Shown: piece by piece, positions 2,357 through 63,294 of the stretch
Numbering within the stretch: position 1 is the stretch's first letter
Layout: the number at the start of each line of letters is the position of its first letter
DNA from: Capitulum mitella
Taxonomy: Eukaryota > Arthropoda > Thecostraca > Pollicipedomorpha > Pollicipedidae
Assembly: GCA_030062745.1 (NCBI GenBank)
Contig: CP099841.1
Span: 32,046,368 to 32,110,367, forward strand
Length of the DNA: 64,000 bases
Direction of reading: 5' to 3'
The notes under the pieces: model-generated
What the model was told of the DNA's origin: nothing
Databases searched by the model: none
The model's input: only the letters and a program-made list of their open reading frames with translations
Translations under genes and position numbers: made by a program

Positions 2357-3604
2357 AGAAACTAATATTTCCAGACCAAATGTCAGAATATCCCCATTTT
2401 ACATATGACAAAAAATCTATAAGGGGTAATGTCGTCCGACTCATTGGAACTTTTGCTATTGGTAAAGGCGGCCATTCCCAAAAATGGTCATTGTAAACAT
2501 TGCACAACGTGTCAATCCTTTCGTCCCAAACAGCCATAAGAGCTTTTTTTTAATAGTTTTACAATGGTAATCTGATCCAAAAGCACCATGTGGGTTGCCG
2601 TACGTTGCGTCATGCAGTCAAGTACTCTGTATGAAATCAACGGTCAGTAGGTGGGCGGCACAGCAAATAAGACGGGAGAATCCATCATCTGAAACTCTTC
2701 TTAAAGAACAGAGACTTTTCCACAACCGTAAACAATCCTCAACTAATACTTTCATCAGTCTTTCATACGGAAGTCAGATGATGTTCACGTTAGTTAACCG
2801 GCAGATACTCAACGATGTTCCATGCCCATTAGGGTGTGGTAAAAGTACACTCTTGCAAGATCTGGATCTGCTTTTAAATTTACTTGGTGCCTTTACATGT
2901 GTAGAATGCCTCTGTAATGTCGATTTTTGCATATTTTTGGCAACGAATATCGCGTCTCAATTTGAACACGCACAATCTCTCCGCATTTCGTCAGCTTCAA
3001 AGGCACAATGCCGGTAGTGAGACGCATTTAGGGCTGCCAAACAAAACAAGCTAGAGAAGCGAAACAAAAATCAGTATGTTGCTCATTGCCGGGGTCTCCA
3101 ATGACACCAAGAATTTGTATCTGAGGTCATTGGACCGTATTCCAGATGAGGCCAAAGGCCATTTTTACCCAAAACCGGTCATTTTCACGTGTTGCCTTGC
3201 ATTGTAAGAGAACGACGAACGGTATCCTTGTAAAACGCTTGCAAGAGTGTTTTCCAATGTATTACAAAGTTAACGACACATCATATGCTAGATATGGATA
3301 TTTATAGGTATCATGAGCCAGGTCAGGCCAAAGAGTTGGTCTCAAGTTGGTCGATCGAGAAATACTGCCTAAATTATGTTTCATGTTCACTGGGGTAAAA
3401 CCGGACGCTAGAATCGAATTTGGCAGCCAAAAGCAACGATGTGCCAATAGTTAACTCTAATTCCAAAACAGTCGCACAAGATCAGCATTCGCACAAGGTC
3501 AATGATCCTGAATGACCTTGAGAAGCTAAATGACTCACATCGCCCTGTTGTTGGAGTCCTGAATTGCACTAACTGCACAATTGCAGACCATAATTGTGCA
3601 ATGT
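2357..3604. other. No recognised gene
   Basis: A 140-codon plus-strand frame (2595-3017) has no recognisable motif. The stretch 3100-3400 contains GAGGTCATTGGACC and other AGGTCA motifs resembling the interior of the TTAA elements but could not be aligned to them. Confidence 0.4.
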
Positions 3605-3652
3605 TGGTCAAGGCTGGCCTTGACCGACATTGGTCAAGGCCAGCCTTGATGG
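3605..3652. repeat. Short nested inverted repeat (GGTCAAGGCTGGCCTTGACC)
   Basis: A near-perfect palindrome of 20 bp is followed after a few bases by an inverted partial copy (GGTCAAGGCCAGCCTTGAT). It sits at the edge of the minus-strand pseudogene. Confidence 0.6.
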
Positions 3653-3703
3653 TGGTCATCTGAGCGGGGCAGCAATCGGAGCAGTGTTCCATTTATACGA
3701 CAA

Positions 3704-23700: not shown

Positions 23701-26700
23701 CAGTGAAGTGTATCGCATGGGTGGCGATGTCCAAGCATAGTCTTATCGGACCATTCTGGTTCGAGGAAGATGACGGCCGCCCGGCTACAGTGAATACGCA
23801 GCGATACATTGAAGTCATGGGGAGTTTCCAGGAGTATGTGCAGGTCCAGACACCACTTCGGTTATTTCCCTGATGGAGTTGCACTTGGACCCAGTGGGGT
23901 TGCATCTACAACCCATTTGTATATAAAGTTACACAACTTTTAATGTATTTCAGTCAAAAGGTAGGTAGGCCATGGGCTCGTTATGTAAAAACTATTTCGT
24001 CGAGATCAAAGAATAACAATGGACTGGAGGTCAAACCGCACTTCCGACGATCCAAGACAAAGCTGCTCTCCTGAGCCTTTGCATTGTCATATCGCAACCT
24101 GCACGAATGTAAAACCAACCTTTAAAAATGGGAGGGCCTCCACCCGCCCAAGAGGGCCCTCTCCCCACAGCAGGTACCAGACAAAACAATGGTACTGTAT
24201 TGTACGGGCAGTAAAAAAAAAAAAAAAAAAACGATACATTGCTATAATGTGTTGGTATGTAATGTAAAGAGATGTAAAAATACCCTTCCCCTTGGGGAAA
24301 AACTGGATCTGCTCCTGGATCCTCCTGCGAAGAAAGCTCAACAGCGAGCTGATGCACGTGACGTGAGCTGATAAACGTGAGATGCACAATCGAGCAAACC
24401 TACTGTGAAACGTTTGCATCGCGCACCAAAAGGCAACTCACCTGCGGTTCCAAACGTGTAGCCCCCAATCGTGAGAGAGTCAGGGTACTGAAACTCGTCG
24501 AATATGGCGAAGTAGCGTTGATTGTCCGCGGCTGTGAGATCCACCATCAGCTCATACCCGGGGACATTGATTTTTGACATTTCTTCTGTTCCTGAAATAA
24601 AAATAAGAAAAGGCTCAGCCAATGGTATCAGGAAAGAGACAGTGCTGAGATGGCAGCTGGTTACTACCATGGATTCTGTTCTGTATCTTGCTAAGCACTT
24701 TCCCCGATGTTGACCGTGACCATACTTGTCACTTTTACATGAGAATAACTAACAGGGCCGCCACGGATTTTCGATGGGCACACACGGTAACGGGTCCAAT
24801 CGTTTTTAGGGCAAACGTTCGTATCGCACAAGTTCGTCGGACAAAAGTTCGTCGGTTTAAGTTCGTCGAACAAGAGTTCGTCGTGCAGAAGTTCGTAGTG
24901 TAAAAGTTCGTCTAGGGCAAAAGTTCGTCTAGGACAAAAATTCGTCTTGCAAAAGTTCGTCGTGGAAAGGTTCGTCGAGGGCAAAAGTTCGTCGAGGGTA
25001 AAAGCCCGTCGAGGACAAAAGATCGTCGAGGACAAAAGTTCGTCTTGGAGAAGTTCGTGTAGGACAAAAGTTCGTCTGGTACATAGGTTCGTGTGGGACA
25101 AAAGTTCTTCTCACAGAAGTTCGTCTGACGCAAAAGTTCTTATAAGACAAAAACTTGCATGCGGCAAAAGTTTGTCTAGGACAAAATCCTTCATTTCAAA
25201 TTATCACCATCATCACAAAAGTTTGTCGAGAACATGTCATGTCATGTCAAGGGTAAAAGTTCGTCTAGGACAAATTCGTCTCGCAAATGGAAAAGCTTCG
25301 TACTGTAAAAGGTTCGTATGGAAAAGGTTCGTAGGCAGAGAAAGTAAGGAAGGAAGTAAGGGAAAAATTCGTAAGGAGAAAGGTTGGAAGCCAAAGGTTA
25401 CTTAACTTAAGGTTCGTATCAGAAGTTCAGGAGTGGACCTGAAATAGTACCCTAACCTGACGTAAACTTACCTCTCTGTTGGACGGAACCAAGTCCGATC
25501 GCACCCTTTATCGGCCTGCAGCCTGTAGTGGCCTTTACCGCGCCTTTTGCGCAAACTCAGAATGACTCCTTTCCCATAGGAACTTTTGTTTACGAACCTT
25601 TGGCTACGAACATTTTTCTTACAAGCCTTCCTCCCCACGAGCCTTTTTCCCACGAGCCTTTTCCATACGAGCATTTTGCCGTTCAAAACTTTTTGCGTCA
25701 CGAACGTTTTCCGATAAGAACCTTTCATTATACGAGCCTTTTACCACACGACCCTCGTGCCTACGAACCTTTGTCCAGTTACCCACTGGCCTGTGACTCG
25801 GGCAGGTCAATACGGCGCACAGTGGCTGAAGTGGGATGTGCACGACAGTGTTAAAAAAGACTGTGTCCTGGGAATGGCGTCAACGACCAAGTGCTTGCTA
25901 AATTGGCGACCACGTCCAGAAATATGCGCCCTTTAAAATTCACCCCTCCCGATCAGTTTATATGTGTCTAGAAAATACCATTCCTGAGTAAGCTGGAATT
26001 TAGGTACTGTGATTTAGTTACTTCAAAAATATACTAGGACTATTCCGATAGTACTACCAGCTCTTTTGCCATTCGAACCTACCACTTTTTCTACTGGGCC
26101 CTTCATCCCACACCGGACACCGCTCTCCTGGCTACCACATGTGCTAAACCAATGACATTCCGTGGTCGCCAAAAGCGGTGACGAGAGGCCAACCCGTGTT
26201 CATCGTGGTCGGCGCCCAAAAAGTTAGGCGTAAGCCTTGGGCGCCTTGATAGAATATGCGGATCGTCCATGGTGTAGATTTCAAATTCCAACGTTTGTGT
26301 GGGCAGTCGAACTACCTCGAAACTGCATTGCTTGTCGTAAGCAAGGTAGTGTGAGGATCAACACCAAGAGAAGACAAAACACAGAGGAGAAAACTGTGGG
26401 CAATGCGAGGGTAAATGGCAAGAAGAGGGTGAAGAGAAAGTATGCATGTGACCATGAAGGATGTTCGTGGTCAGGTACCGAACAAAGCATATATAAACAT
26501 ACAAAGAACAACATGAGGTACATGAGCCAATGAAGATATTTCCAGAAAGCCAGTTTGCTCGAGGACGCTGGTCAAGCTGGATAAGACATGAAGGTATGTA
26601 CCCAGTACCTAACCATTTCATGAAACGTCGATTTTCTGGTGCTTTTTTTCATTTTTGTTTTTTTGCTGTGGAAACTGTCTTTCAGTTACTGACATTAAAT

Positions 26701-29700
26701 GAAAATAATGACCGTTGTGCACATTTTGGATAACTCATGTTTGTGCATCCAACATAACTAATGATACCGTCACATGATGCTTTCTTTCCTGACAAAGCTT
26801 TGACTTGTGTGTTTATGTACTACCTAAGCTTGAGCCTTAACTCGTCCCCGACTGGGGGGGGGGGCAGTTGGCCGCCCCCCTGAGGTTTTTCTAGGATTGC
26901 GAGAGAACGAACAAACACAGAGTCACGAAACTTTGTGCACCTTTTTGCTTCATCAATTTTGCATTTCGTGTCAAAATTTGGACCTCAGGTCAGGTTAGGT
27001 GCCTGACCTAGGTCAGGTCAAACAGACCTATGTCCAAAAACGTTTAGCGCCCTGTAACTTTGTCGGAAAACAAGATATCTCAATAATACTTTCAGGGATT
27101 AGTTATCGTGATAGATGCAACAAATCTGCTATCTCAGATTTTTCCGAATTTTCCGGGTCATTGACCTAAGGTCAAGCCCATTTTTAAGACATGTCGTCGT
27201 TTTTTCGGAAATTGACGGAATATTTCATAACATTTTTAGTATGGAGTCAAGCAGACATCTAGTTACCGTCATTGGGCAAAGCGTCAATGACTTCCAGCCA
27301 TTGACCTGAGGTCAAATCACGAATAATTGTAGTGGGCCAAAATGTACCACAGTCAAAATCGGCGATGAATTACTCAGAAGGGGTAGAAAATAGCAGAACT
27401 AGCTTGCACAGACGTAAGTAATACCAGGAACCTCAAAACGTTTGAAAAATAACATATTTTGGAAATAAATAGGCTCTCGCGAATAAAACTCCGCCAATTT
27501 TGTAGATTGGTAACTAATGGATTTTTCCAAAATTTAAGCATGAAAAACCATCACAAGAACCACTAAGATCAATAAAATTTACATAGATAGGCTTTTTTCG
27601 CGAAAATAAAGGAATGCCAAAATTAGTTCCCGTCAGTTTGTTACTGCATACGGCTGGCGCACGCCGACAGCTGGCGTGAGAATTGCCGTGTCTTTAACTC
27701 AACGTTTCGGCGTATATATGGAAGAAATCTGGGAATTAGACGTGTATCGGCTTCCGCGGACCTTTACTTGTGCGCTAGCGCCATTAACTATGCGTTATTA
27801 GTCACAGCCCGTGAAATTCAGGCCATTTCTCGGTCTGATGCAGTCGGCTATGAGAAAACATATATAGAGCGAAAATTGCTTACATGTTATCTAAAACTAA
27901 AAATGAGACCAATTTCGAGCTCCACTCGTCACAAGCTTTCCAACGGTATGCTTATTTTTATCGTGCGGGCAACCGTTCGTGAGTTGGAGGGGGACGGTTA
28001 ACTGCCCCTCCCCCCAGTCGCGCATGTTCGAAACCGACCGACGGTCGTGCGCGGGTTAAATTATCAAATCATAGCAATGTTCTTGGAGCATATGTTTCAA
28101 TTTAGTCTTAGTTTTTGTGCAACTGCAATACTGCATTCTCATAACTACCATGACAGGATTATTTTTCCAACCCTGCCTTTTCTAGAGCTGTGGGAAGTGA
28201 GTATAGATTGACTAAATCTGATTTTTCAACACATATACTTCATATGTCAGTACTTTCTTTCTTGTAGAAACATCAATGCAGATGTCTCATCCACTGAACA
28301 TGAAATGATGTTGGCAACAGGTTAATCTGGAGATTTCTGTCAGTCGCAGTCATATGTGCAATCATACATCTCTGTTTAAGCTTCTCGTTTTTTGTGCCCC
28401 CTCCCAAAAAAAAACGTCTTCAGCAACTAAATATGTGTATAAGATTACTCAAACTGTGACGGGTTTTTGTTTCCTTGGGTGCTACATTTGGCACAGTCAT
28501 GCCCCTTTAAAAATAACAAGAGCCCCCTCTCCCCTCCGGTTGGCGACCAGTTTACAAAGCTTGTATGCGGTCGGCGGCCATCGAAAACTTTTTTTCAGCC
28601 CTGGTGTAGGAGTTCCAATGGGATCAGTTCCGGATCCGGCCATGGGTAGAGCATCATTCACCAGCATGACTCCATGAGCTGTCATCTGACAGTTGGCAGT
28701 TTTTCTTGACTAGACATATACCAGATATATAGTTGACTAGATATATACTAAATATATAGTTGACTTGACTAGATATGTGCTGCCCTGAAGGACTTCCGTG
28801 CGAGAACCATGTGACACGGACAGCCTTTTTTCGTAGAGGAACGTTTGCCCTTGACGAACTTTTGGCCCAGACGAACTTCTGTCCAAAACGAGTTTCTGCC
28901 AGATGAACTTTTGTCCTGGACAAATTTTTGGCCTAAACGAGCTTTTGCTGGACGAACTTTTGTCCTTTACGAACTTAAGTGCGACAAACTTTTGTCCTAG
29001 ACGAGCTTTTGTCCTGTGCAAACTTTGTCCATACGAACTTTCGCGAGACGAACTTTTGCCCTAGATGAACTTTTGTCCGACGAACTTTTGTCCTTACGAA
29101 CTATTGCCCGACGAACTACTGTCCTACGAACTTCAGTCCGACGAATTTCTGTCCGAAAACCATCCAGTCTCATGGGTTACCCCAGTCTTGATCTGCACTC
29201 GGATTTCGACCGACTTCTTTTCCAGTTTAAAAGGAAGTGAATGTCGTATGGAATAACAATAAATATAAACAGATGTTAACAACATCGGATTAACTACCAA
29301 CGTCAAAGCTTATTCACACTTATGGACGATAACCAGTCTTGTTTTAGCATGGTAGCCTCGACTTGCACCGTCTAGGACTGACGATCGCTCGTTCTGCCCA
29401 TCATTAGTGCGGACAGTTATTATACTACTGAGCTCATAAGTGTTCCATTTTGCAACCAGAGCGTCGCTGAATGGTGCCAACAGATGAAATTCATACGGGA
29501 TCAGAAAACGATGAGCCATGTGAAGAAAATTCCGTTTCCTTAACCCGACATTGACTGGGGCGGTTAACGTCCCCCTTGCCTTTCTTCGATATATCCTAAA
29601 CTAATAAGTGCAGCACCCTGAAAGTTTCAGTGCATATTGGTACATGAATTGTATACATACTGACAGGAATTTGGGTCTGAAGTGACGTCCTGATGACGTC

Positions 29701-38700: not shown

Positions 38701-41700
38701 TCCAGTTTTTGCTTGAGTTGCACGGATCTTTCAGGTATTCACAAGGCAACACTTGAAACGCCCACGTAGACCAAAATAGTGTCTAAGTGGTTGGGGAAGG
38801 TGACATGAGGTCATGCAAGTTTATCTCGATTCTGACCTGGAATGACCCTGAACCTACCTTGCAATGTGCCGTAGCAGTGTCGCTGCATGACAAAAGATCG
38901 CGTTCCATCACTTTAGACGAATTCTGGAACTTGGCCTGACGTGACCTTGACCTTGAATACCTCGTGCCCGCTACAGACATAAACCATACGCTACAGACAT
39001 AACCATTCCATAGGACTATGACATGCCTTAAACACGCTTTGAAAGGAGACTCACAGTGGAATATTTATCACGGAATGTGACCCGACGTGACCTTGACTTT
39101 AGATTACCTGGGCCCTGCAATGGTAATAAAAGGTCACTTCGTAGCCGGATGTAACCTCTAGAACAACTAGTAAACAGCAATCTCATCTGAAACCAGCAAC
39201 ACTATTTTGGACACTACGGTTCAGATTTTCGGTATCTGTGAGCTGTACGCCCACGCGAACGAAGTCACAGCTCAGTGACCTGACGCGACGTGAACTTCAA
39301 ACTTTCAGTGCATTTGAAAAAAAGGTTCAAAACCCAGCTGACCAGTTCGGCATCTATCCCCGAAAACCGGCGGGGGGTTGCACCACCTCACTCCTGGACT
39401 GGCGACGGGTCAATATATCGTTATCGGGTCAATATATCAATATATCGTATATCGGGTCAAGATAGCGTTGGCGCTTCGAGCTGGAGGAATGGGTTTGCGT
39501 CGGTTCTAGGCACTGGGAGAGCCTACGGGATAACTGGTCTTCCAGTGAAGTGGCAATTTGGCCAGTACTTGATAGCTTTAGTTTGGACTCCTGGACTATG
39601 AAACACGTTTAATTTTTGTAATGCCTCTCCCCAAACCCCAATGGAGCCGCCACTTGATGCAGTGGGATGGTGTATTTATGTCAACGTTTGTTAGACAGGG
39701 CATCAAGAACAATCACCCAGTTTTACCGGCTCTATCTCGGACGATTCACAACTGCAGACAAAAAAAAACCTTGGTGACACTTTCTGTCGTGTCAAAGGTC
39801 ATGGCTCGGCCGGACCAACCAGCGGCTGGGGATTTTCGGGTAGAGGTTCGTCGGACTATAAGTTCGTAGTACAATAGTTCTACGGGCAATAATTCGACGG
39901 GCAATAGTTCGTAAGGACAAAAGTTCGTGGGACAAAAGTTCGTCTAGGGCAAAAGTTCGTCTGGCAGAAATTCGTTTAGCACAAATTTCGTATAGGGCAA
40001 AAGTTCGTCCAGTAGAAAGACTGTCCGTGTGATTTTTACTTCGTCCATTCTCGCACGAAAGTCCTCCAAGACAGTATATGTCTAGTCAAGAAAAACTGCC
40101 AACTGTCAGAAGTGAGCTCATGGAGTCATGCTGGTCAATGAGGCTCTAGCCATGGCCGGATCCGGCATTGATCCCACTAAAACTCGTGCACATCCAGCTG
40201 TAGCCACTATGCACGGTATTGACCTGCCCGAGTCAAAAGCGAGTGGGTAACTGGACCAAGGTTCGTATGCACGAGGTTCGTATGGTAAAAGGCTCTTATC
40301 AGAAAAGGTTCGTGGCGCGAAAAGTTCTGAACCGCAAAAGTCTCGTATGGAAAAGGTTCGTTGGAAAAAGGTTCATTAGGGAAATGCTTCGTAAGGAAAA
40401 ACGTTCGTAGTCAAAGGTTCGTAAACAAAGGCTAGTATCGGAAAGGAGTCGCTCCGGATTTGTGCAAAAGGCGCGGTAAAGGCCACTAGAGGCTGCAGGT
40501 CGATAAAGACTGTGATCGGACTTGGTTCCGTCTAACGGAGAGGTTAAGTAAGGCTAGGTTAGGTTACTATTTTAGGTCCGCTCTTTTCCGATGCAAACCT
40601 CAAGTTAACTAACCTTTGGTTTGGAACCTTTTTACCTTACGATTTTTTCCCTTGCTTCGTGCCTTACTTCCTTTGCCTACAAACCTTTTCCATACGAACC
40701 TTTTACAGTATGAAGCTTTTCCATTAGCGAGACGAACTTGTCCTAGCCGAACTTTTGCCCTTGACGAACTGTTCTTCTAGACAAACTTCTGTGATGATGG
40801 TGGTGATTCGAAATAACGGATTTTTGTCCTAGACAAACTTTTGTCTCATGCAAGTTTTTGCCTTGTACGAACTTTTTGTAGGGTTTTGGAATTTTTAAGT
40901 TAAAAAAAATTTTTCGAACTTTTTCGCGTTTGTAGACGAACTTTTCAGACGAACTTTTACGAAGAACTTTTTTGAACTTTTGTCCAACGAACTTCTGCAA
41001 TACAAAGTTTTGTCCTAAAACCGCTGCTGGACGTTTCGTGCCTCAACAATCACAAGCGTTTGCCGAACGCAGGAAATTTACGTGATTTTTGCAGTTCTAG
41101 AAACGGATTTGCAATCAGAGGTTGGGAATGCACTTAACAAAACGAACAAATAGGAATATGTTTCCGTGGTTCATCGATCGAAGGTCACTGCTCTGTTGGA
41201 TTCTGTCAGTGTCATAAGATGAAGGCTAACCACCGTGCAAGGAGTGTTCAAAAGACCTCGACTTTTCTCTTTGAGGGGAGGGTGACGCAAGCGACAAAAC
41301 TTTCCCTTAATCGTTTCCAATCCAATCCAGGGTTCTGAAGTTGAACGTTGTGAAATTTAAAGATTTTCTCCAGGACTTTACTCTGCAGAGACTGGTTTGT
41401 TACTCAGCTGTCAATACCGCACAATAAATTAGCTGAAAACCCAGATTAAATCAGTTCTTTCTAAACAATGATCAACAACCTCACGACGCCAGAAGACGCT
41501 CGATAAATTCCACTTTGCATCTGCCGTACATTTGTACATTTCCACGCGTGCATATTCATTTCACGACTTGGACGAGTTACGTAATGAAAATGAACGGTTG
41601 GAACTGCATGAGGAAGGGGGCAATGTCCGCGTCTACCTGGCGCAGACGACGATGTATGTATGTCCGCACGGTCGGTGGACTCGGGAGACGTGGGTCTTAC

Positions 41701-61897: not shown

Positions 61898-62189
61898 GAG
61901 GAAAGGATATGGTTGGGGATTTCTGATTTTTTTTACCGGGAAGTGGGTCTCATGGGATTTCAGACCGTTTCTTTTCAGTCATTGCCATAGGGCCAATGTT
62001 AAAATGCGTGAATGTTGGGGGCGGGGGTCCGGTGCACCCATCCCTCAGGATCGCCGGCCATTGGAGAGAACGTCTGCGCGCCTGACCGCTGACGTCTCTG
62101 GCAGGGTTTGCTCCAGTCCTGCGTACAGGATATGTCATATATGTGGCTGCATGGTGTGTGATGATGGTCTGTTGGCGGGGTATTGGCAC

Positions 62190-63157
62190 TCTGTTCTGTG
62201 TGATCACAGTCTGCCGGCAGGAGACCGTGGCTGTGCGGTGTGTGATCACGGTCTGTCGGCAGGAGACCGGGGCTGTGCGGTGTGTGATCACAGTCTGCCG
62301 GCAGGAGACCGTGGCTGTGCGGTGTGTGATCACGGTCTGCCGGCAGGAGACCGTGGCTGTGCGGTGTGTGATCACAGTCTGCCGGCAGGAGACCGTGGCT
62401 GTGCGGTGTGTGATCACAGTCTGCCGGCAGGAGACCGTGGCCGTGTGTGATGACGGTCTGCCGGCAGGAGACCGTGGCCGTGTGTGATCACAGTCTGCCG
62501 GCAGGAGACCGTGGCTGTGCGGTGTGTGATCACGGTCTGTCGGCAGGAGACCGTGGCTGTGCGGTGTGTGATCACGGTCTGTCGGCAGGAGACCGTGGCT
62601 GTGCGGTGTGTGATCACAGTCTGCCGGCAGGAGACCGTGGCCGTGTGTGATCACGGTCTGCCGGCAGGAGACCGTGGCTGTGCGGTATGTGATCACAGTC
62701 TGCCGGCAGGAGACCGTGGCCGTGTGTGATTACGGTCTGCCGGCAGGAGACCGTGGCTGTGCGGTATGTGATCACGGTCTGCGGGCAGGAGACCGTGGCC
62801 GTGTGTGATCACAGTCTGCCGGCAGGAGACCGTGGCTGTGCGGTATGTGATCACAGTCTGCCGGCAGGAGACCGTGGCCGTGTGTGATCACAGTCTGCCG
62901 GCAGGAGACCGTGGCTGTGCGGTGTGTGATCACAGTCTGCCGGCAGGAGACCGTGGCTGTGCGGTGTGTGATCACAGTCTGCCGGCAGGAGACCGTGGCC
63001 GTGTGTGATCACGGTCTGCCGGCAGGAGACCGTGGCTGTGCGGTATGTGATCACAGTCTGCCGGCAGGAGACCGTGGCCGTGTGTGATTACGGTCTGCCG
63101 GCAGGAGACCGTGGCTGTGCGGTATGTGATCACAGTCTGCCGGCAGGAGACCGTGGC
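62190..63157 (+). repeat. Minisatellite, 24 units of 42 bp or 37 bp
   Basis: Unit starts (CTGCCGGCAG and variants) are at 62211, 62253, 62295, 62337, 62379, 62421, 62458, 62495 and so on to 63137. That gives fifteen 42-bp and eight 37-bp intervals. From 62621 to 62937 the two alternate, giving a 79-bp higher-order period. Each unit holds two palindromes, CTGCCGGCAG and TGTGATCACA; short units lack five bases (GCGGT) between them. The 42-bp unit is open in several frames on both strands, so 14-residue repeats (for example GDRGCAVCDHSLPA) appear, but each 37-bp unit shifts the frame. I regard it as non-coding. Confidence 0.95.
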
Positions 63158-63294
63158 TGTGCGGTCGGCGGCCGGCCGGCGCTGGGACGCTTTCTGTCGA
63201 GCTGCGCCGACTGAGGGCCTCATGCGCGCGCCGCCGCCGCCCCCGGCACCTGATGGAGTCGCCGAACGACAGGACGACTGGGAGCCGCCTCCTC
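63142..63294 (+). CDS. Possible exon between the last minisatellite unit and a canonical donor
   Basis: The last repeat unit supplies an AG (CCGGCAG|GAG), and the sequence is open in two frames up to CCTCC|GTGAGT at 63294/63295. One frame reads RRWDAFCRAAPTEGL and then a Pro-rich run ending DDWEPPP. Phase does not match the simplest splice from the exon at 61622. Not recognised. Confidence 0.25.

Follow-up and report, generated by a model that had tools for sequence, protein, structure and literature searches.

Does the repeat-rich DNA near 39.8 kb in this 64,000-nucleotide stretch of the Capitulum mitella genome (the window) belong to a mobile element, or has a short tandem unit simply spread by itself? 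The initial annotation had read it as one of three copies (at 24.8, 28.5 and 39.8 kb) of a single foldback-like mobile unit, not as independent simple repeats. With at most one mismatch, 65 places in the window match the 15-17-bp unit, 62 of them within two elements (A and B), whereas 20 dinucleotide shuffles of the window gave a mean of 6.5 and a maximum of 16 matches, so the arrays stand far above chance.

The order that had been claimed (array a, segment 1, array b, core, inverted b, inverted a) was seen at 39831-41022, and we refer to this copy as element A (Table 1). It is 89.0% identical to the family consensus described below, with an array a shorter than that of the consensus. Its target-site duplication can alternatively be read as an 8-bp one, GCGGCTGG/GCTGCTGG, with seven of eight bases matching.

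Table 1. Coordinates of the two foldback-type elements, their parts and the nested insertion, in positions of the window.
Feature	Position	Strand	Remarks
Element A, non-autonomous foldback-type element	39831..41022	+	1192 bp, both ends present; from termini and flanks
Left target-site duplication of element A	39822..39830	+	GCGGCTGGG, 7/9 shared with the right one
Array a of element A	39831..40019	+	15-17-bp units GTTCGTC(TA)GGACAAAA; boundaries approximate
Segment 1 of element A	40020..40250	+	non-repetitive; boundaries approximate
Array b of element A	40255..40445	+	14-16-bp units GTTCGTATGGAAAAG; boundaries approximate
Core of element A	40446..40580	+	non-repetitive except GGTTA repeats
Inverted array b of element A	40581..40720	-	boundaries approximate
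Inverted array a of element A	40721..41022	-	contains spacer CTTCTGTGATGATGGTGGTGATTCGAAAT; boundaries approximate
Right target-site duplication of element A	41023..41031	+	GCTGCTGGA
Element B, opposite orientation	24802..29161	-	4360 bp in total, about 1.6 kb after subtraction of the nested insert
Target-site duplication of element B	24794..24801	-	GATTGGAC on the minus strand, 6/8 with the other side
Target-site duplication of element B, other side	29162..29169	-	GACTGGAT on the minus strand
hAT-like insertion, non-autonomous, nested within segment 1 of element B	25846..28603	+	2758 bp

The window turned out to hold two copies and not three. On the minus strand, 25845->25132 aligned with element A at 82.3% over 718 columns, and segment 1 of element A carried on along that strand at 28806->28764 and 28721->28604. 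Since the alignment is collinear and on one strand, the pieces at 24.8 and 28.5 kb each represent one half of a single reversed element, element B. The three pieces could be taken for separate elements, that is, for several independent mobile units with the same arrays, because the first two lie 3 kb apart and differ in content at first sight; given that they are collinear halves and that a hAT-like insert with a boundary of its own lies between them, we consider this extremely improbable.

The insert carries hAT-type ends (CAGTGTTAAAAAAG / CAGGGCTGAAAAAA) and is flanked by an imperfect 8-bp duplication (gtgcacga/gtgtagga, 6/8). Its left boundary was examined with a 551-base query crossing it, for which the best 40 of 243 candidates in the genome were scored. 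The predicted boundary falls on query base 147, and of the 41 listed matches, one of which is the window's own, 28 start at query base 146-148, corresponding to window positions 25845-25847. This confirms the boundary and identifies the insert as an independent repeat family. One of the listed matches to this family is on the contig of the window itself, about 12 kb upstream of where the window starts. The hAT superfamily is characterized by 8-bp duplications and CA...TG type ends. The nested insert of element B does fit hAT ends, whereas the foldback family itself does not show these features: its ends are GG...CC and 18 of its 28 duplications are 9 bp long.

The whole genome assembly (477 Mb, 16 contigs) was searched with the core (40440-40620) and with segment 1, as had been proposed, and both queries returned dispersed copies. 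For the core, the best 40 of 397 candidates were scored; matches were found on all 16 contigs and, element A itself aside, the scored ones were 79-85% identical to element A. For segment 1, the best 40 of 224 candidates were scored. We read 40 copies, comprising 38 further core loci and elements A and B; as these are the best-scoring ones, degraded copies are under-represented among them. A map of the units revealed one layout common to most of the copies mapped, with a few shortened or rearranged (e.g. L015, L018, L027 and L033).

From 29 copies, with L022, L027 and element B excluded from the alignment, we derived a consensus of 1534 bp. It has arms of about 350 and 430 bp, which are 81.6% identical over 326 bp when one is inverted. 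Within single copies the arms are only 68-80% identical in their best stretch, so that the term inverted repeat applies in an imperfect sense. The family termini are GGTTTTCGGGCAGAAG...CTTTTGCCCTAAAACC, with GGTTTTCGGGCAGAAGTTCGTCGGACTAAAG as the left and TTCTGCGATACGAACTTTTGCCCTAAAACC as the right terminus. The ends are fixed but imperfect (5' GGTTTTCGGGCAG... and 3' ...GCCCTAAAACC), and the ends and flanks of the family copies bear out the GTCCGAAAACC-like termini proposed earlier.

The initial annotation had suggested looking for target-site duplications at the ends. An end was called when seven or more of its nine outermost bases matched, and by this rule 32 of the 40 copies read had both ends. 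With a threshold of at least 6/8 or at least 7/9 matching bases, 28 of these 32 copies had an 8- or 9-bp duplication (18 of nine and 10 of eight bp) versus 9 of 992 swapped flank pairs. The identity of the two flanks was 0.27-0.30 for k = 5-7, rose to 0.50 at k = 8 and 0.59 at k = 9, and was down to 0.26 at k = 10; between different copies, flank identity was 0.24-0.25 at every k. Four of the 32 copies lacked a duplication (L010, L022, L027 and L035), and the called ends of L022 and L027 look spurious. The search for left ends started 400 bp before the core, and shorter copies such as L015, the left end of which lies 317 bp before the core, were therefore missed and left unscored.

Under the alternative of a dispersed satellite or minisatellite, in which the apparent element would be a by-product of array spread, arrays are expected to occur without the unique cores. 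This alternative draws on the fact that the units are 15-17-bp tandem repeats and on a published precedent, described for Tetris, of foldback units seeding satellite arrays (PMC4079207). Arrays devoid of cores were not seen among the segment-1 loci: all 15 loci examined, of the 40 listed, hold the core and the arrays; 11 of the 15 are absent from the core list. The counts of arrays and termini pointed in the same direction. A 31-mer of the array had 1168 matches in the genome, which at the 2.4-2.9 array matches observed per element read corresponds to about 400-490 elements. Allowing 3 mismatches, the left-terminus 31-mer matched at 274 places (142 + 132) and the right-terminus 31-mer at 233 (113 + 120), with no genome matches to the backwards control patterns of either; at a detection of 0.675 per copy these counts correspond to 345-406 elements. 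The element numbers are rough because the detection rates come from best-scoring copies, but the two ranges roughly agree, and we estimate the family at several hundred copies. Together with the duplications in 28 of 32 copies and the cores in 15 of 15 loci, this agreement makes satellite spread highly improbable and favors a single mobile unit of foldback-like structure, as had been claimed.

The features by which foldback-type elements are recognized are thus present in the family: long inverted termini composed of short tandem subrepeats (units of 15-17 bp), dispersed copies that share non-repetitive segments, and target-site duplications of a length comparable to those of Tetris (8-10 bp) and Tm1 (9 bp). 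We conclude that it very probably consists of non-autonomous, foldback-type terminal-inverted-repeat DNA transposons of the cut-and-paste kind. In such a scheme, a transposase encoded elsewhere would have bound the terminal units, and the element would have been cut out and then re-inserted with a staggered cut. The arrays may represent multiplied binding sites or by-products of slippage, and the family would now be inactive and subject to decay, in which whole units are lost, internal inversions occur and other sequences insert into the copies.

A long copy encoding a transposase, which the initial annotation had hoped for, was not found among the pairs formed from 100 of the 274 left and 100 of the 233 right termini. 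These 100 + 100 listed termini gave 30 left/right pairs, 28 of which span 0.66-1.82 kb. Three recognized copies exceed 2.3 kb, and two of them, element B and L068, are enlarged by nested hAT-like inserts, so that neither qualifies as an autonomous element; the long copy of the window owes its length to such an insert. L068, a 4.57-kb pair, is a core-deleted copy with a nested hAT-like insert of 3671 bp flanked by an exact 8-bp duplication, TCCATAAG. L069, a 2.3-kb pair, has the usual ends and arrays and a different interior of about 1.3 kb (L069:609-1953), which replaces part of segment 1, array b and the core. In the right arm of L065, a copy of 2154 bp absent from the pair list, about 0.9 kb of the sequence is foreign (about 2780-3695).

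No transposase was recognized either within the copies or next to them. In the window, 90 stop-to-stop open reading frames reach at least 100 aa; Pfam scans of 85 gave only three weak matches, and the five outside the scan comprise four that overlap element B and one at 62086-62487. The window contains no tRNA and no Rfam family at the gathering threshold, and searches of viral and prokaryote genome contigs with the unit doublet gave no exact match. Elsewhere in the window, at 62197-63165, a tandem array of 24 copies of a 42-bp unit overlaps a 313-aa open frame with a weak match to a double zinc ribbon, below the Pfam cut-off.

The copies also retain a record of how the arrays evolved. Each of the 29 aligned copies is 87.2-92.8% identical to the 1534-bp consensus, and identity from copy to copy is 77.7-86.7% (mean 83.2%). 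The copies are thus about 9% diverged from the consensus, as radiation from one master or one old burst would give. We compared ten 17-bp units of array a with one another. Units at the same position in different copies were 83.2% alike, versus 75.0% for units at different positions within a copy and 74.5% for those at different positions between copies. Because same-position units are more alike than units at different positions, the arrays were fixed before the burst and have not been homogenized since. Of the 93 gaps of at least 10 bases relative to the consensus, 45 measure 15-17, 32 or 49 bases, i.e. whole units or sums of units.

Two further loci showed unusual arrangements. In L067 the middle is inverted between the inverted arms, as recombination within one element would produce. 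At L068:354-1310 (G000 C5:12204000-12210200), two left ends face each other head to head at a distance of 467 bp, and their flanks are mirrored around a long (AT)n stretch, forming a palindrome that includes the element end.

We then considered which transposase might have mobilized the family. A Mutator-like (MULE) enzyme, as suggested for most foldback elements, would make it a MULE-derived foldback MITE, a reading that we hold tentatively as a reasonable possibility while stopping short of favoring it outright. The duplications are mostly 9 bp long (18 of 28), although the other 10 are 8 bp, and the genome contains six matches to the MULE domain PF10551. None of the six MULE loci (3.2 kb read each) contained the arrays; one array match lies 5.7 kb from the MULE locus L058, beyond the stretch read. 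A loose scan of these loci (at most 4 mismatches in 16) returned three single left-terminus matches, in L055, L057 and L060, all of which look like chance; those in L057 and L060 fall inside sequence common to these two copies. L057, L058 and L060 belong to one family, the tandem arrays present in L057 and L058 have a different unit, and we rejected these loci as relatives. Copies of the MULE family of L057 and L058 are 87-92% alike; their arrays consist of units of about 30 bp and, at the two opposite ends of the copies, seem to be inverted.

The other candidate is a Merlin-like transposase. Merlin elements are described as having a conserved terminal GG, 8- or 9-bp duplications and, in some families, internal tandem repeats (PMC8101967), and the present family resembles them in its termini, which start with GG, in its duplications of 8 or 9 bp and in its tandem repeats. 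Matches to the Merlin domain (PF12762) are commoner in the genome than those to the MULE domain (36 vs 6), and some belong to copies 95-99% identical to each other with open frames of 199-324 codons (L070-L077). In addition, a 14-mer, TTCGTCGGGCAGAA, occurs at the right end of one recent Merlin family in all six copies read and lies within one mismatch of the array units, with 34 matches in 38 element loci; no match of this kind was found in the window outside elements A and B. Against this, the ends of the Merlin families read begin with GGTC (TGTC in L076), unlike the termini of the foldback family, the 14-mer points the opposite way with respect to the terminus and was noticed only post hoc, and the eight Merlin loci read of the 36 (L070-L077) contain no arrays. 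The main text of the Merlin survey does not use the term foldback (PMC8101967), and no transposase was found here between the family termini. Mobilization by a Merlin-like enzyme therefore appears somewhat unlikely to us. The more specific proposal, hinted at by TTCGTCGGGCAGAA, that a Merlin-type transposase mobilized the family and that the 15-bp unit is a multiplied Merlin binding site is speculative, and we regard it as unlikely. Runs of CCTAA repeats were observed in the Merlin loci L070 and L074, and the core of the foldback element also has a GGTTA run.

How does the family relate to known foldback systems? Foldback (FB) of Drosophila melanogaster and TU of sea urchin have long inverted ends with internal tandem subrepeats, and TU, a foldback element reported in Nature in 1983, has 15-bp outer units and 8-bp duplications. 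The present elements share with FB and TU the long inverted ends with tandem subrepeats, a likeness of design. The initial annotation knew of no described relative. As far as the unit sequence is concerned, this agrees with our literature search, in which the sequence was not found in relevant papers of the collection searched and 12-base pieces of it appeared in five papers, the four listed being unrelated by title; with regard to the design it does not hold, given Tm1, Tetris and Galileo.

The nearest design, nearly the same as the one found here, is that of Tm1 of root-knot nematodes, a Mutator/Foldback element whose composite inverted ends consist for the most part of 13-15-bp tandem units in varying number (PMC3169594). 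The two have in common inverted ends of short units and different short motifs at the two outer ends, and the account of Tm1 further mentions 9-bp target duplications, many MITE-like copies and a family now decaying (PMC3169594). They differ in the unit, which is CGATTCAGTATCCGC in Tm1 (PMC3169594) and another sequence here, in the duplications, which here are 8 or 9 bp, and in the arrays, which here are of two kinds, a and b, separated by a unique segment at just one of the two sides. Tm1 also has copies with a putative transposase (PMC3169594), whereas none were found here.

In Tetris of Drosophila virilis, too, the inverted ends are long and have tandem repeats in their outer domain, and the duplications are 8-10 bp; the description of Tetris reports no coding copy and suggests membership in Mutator (PMC4079207). 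Its units, however, are about 220 bp long, three structurally complete copies are described, and the units grew into satellite-like arrays (PMC4079207), of which our counts gave no sign. Galileo, of the P superfamily, is similar in its long, internally repetitive inverted ends, which resemble Foldback, and in being a structurally variable family, and differs in having P-type transposase-coding sequence (PMC4168063, PMC3573991). The elements described here are thus a new family of a known design, the foldback.

What the analysis adds is a foldback family that is well resolved, represented by many copies and bounded by clean target duplications. It also carries a warning for annotation, in that a nested hAT-like insert can give a single element the appearance of two. 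If the Merlin lead is true, the range of transposases known to mobilize foldback elements would become wider. The family shows subrepeat arrays that were fixed in a master copy and then decayed, largely through the loss of whole units.
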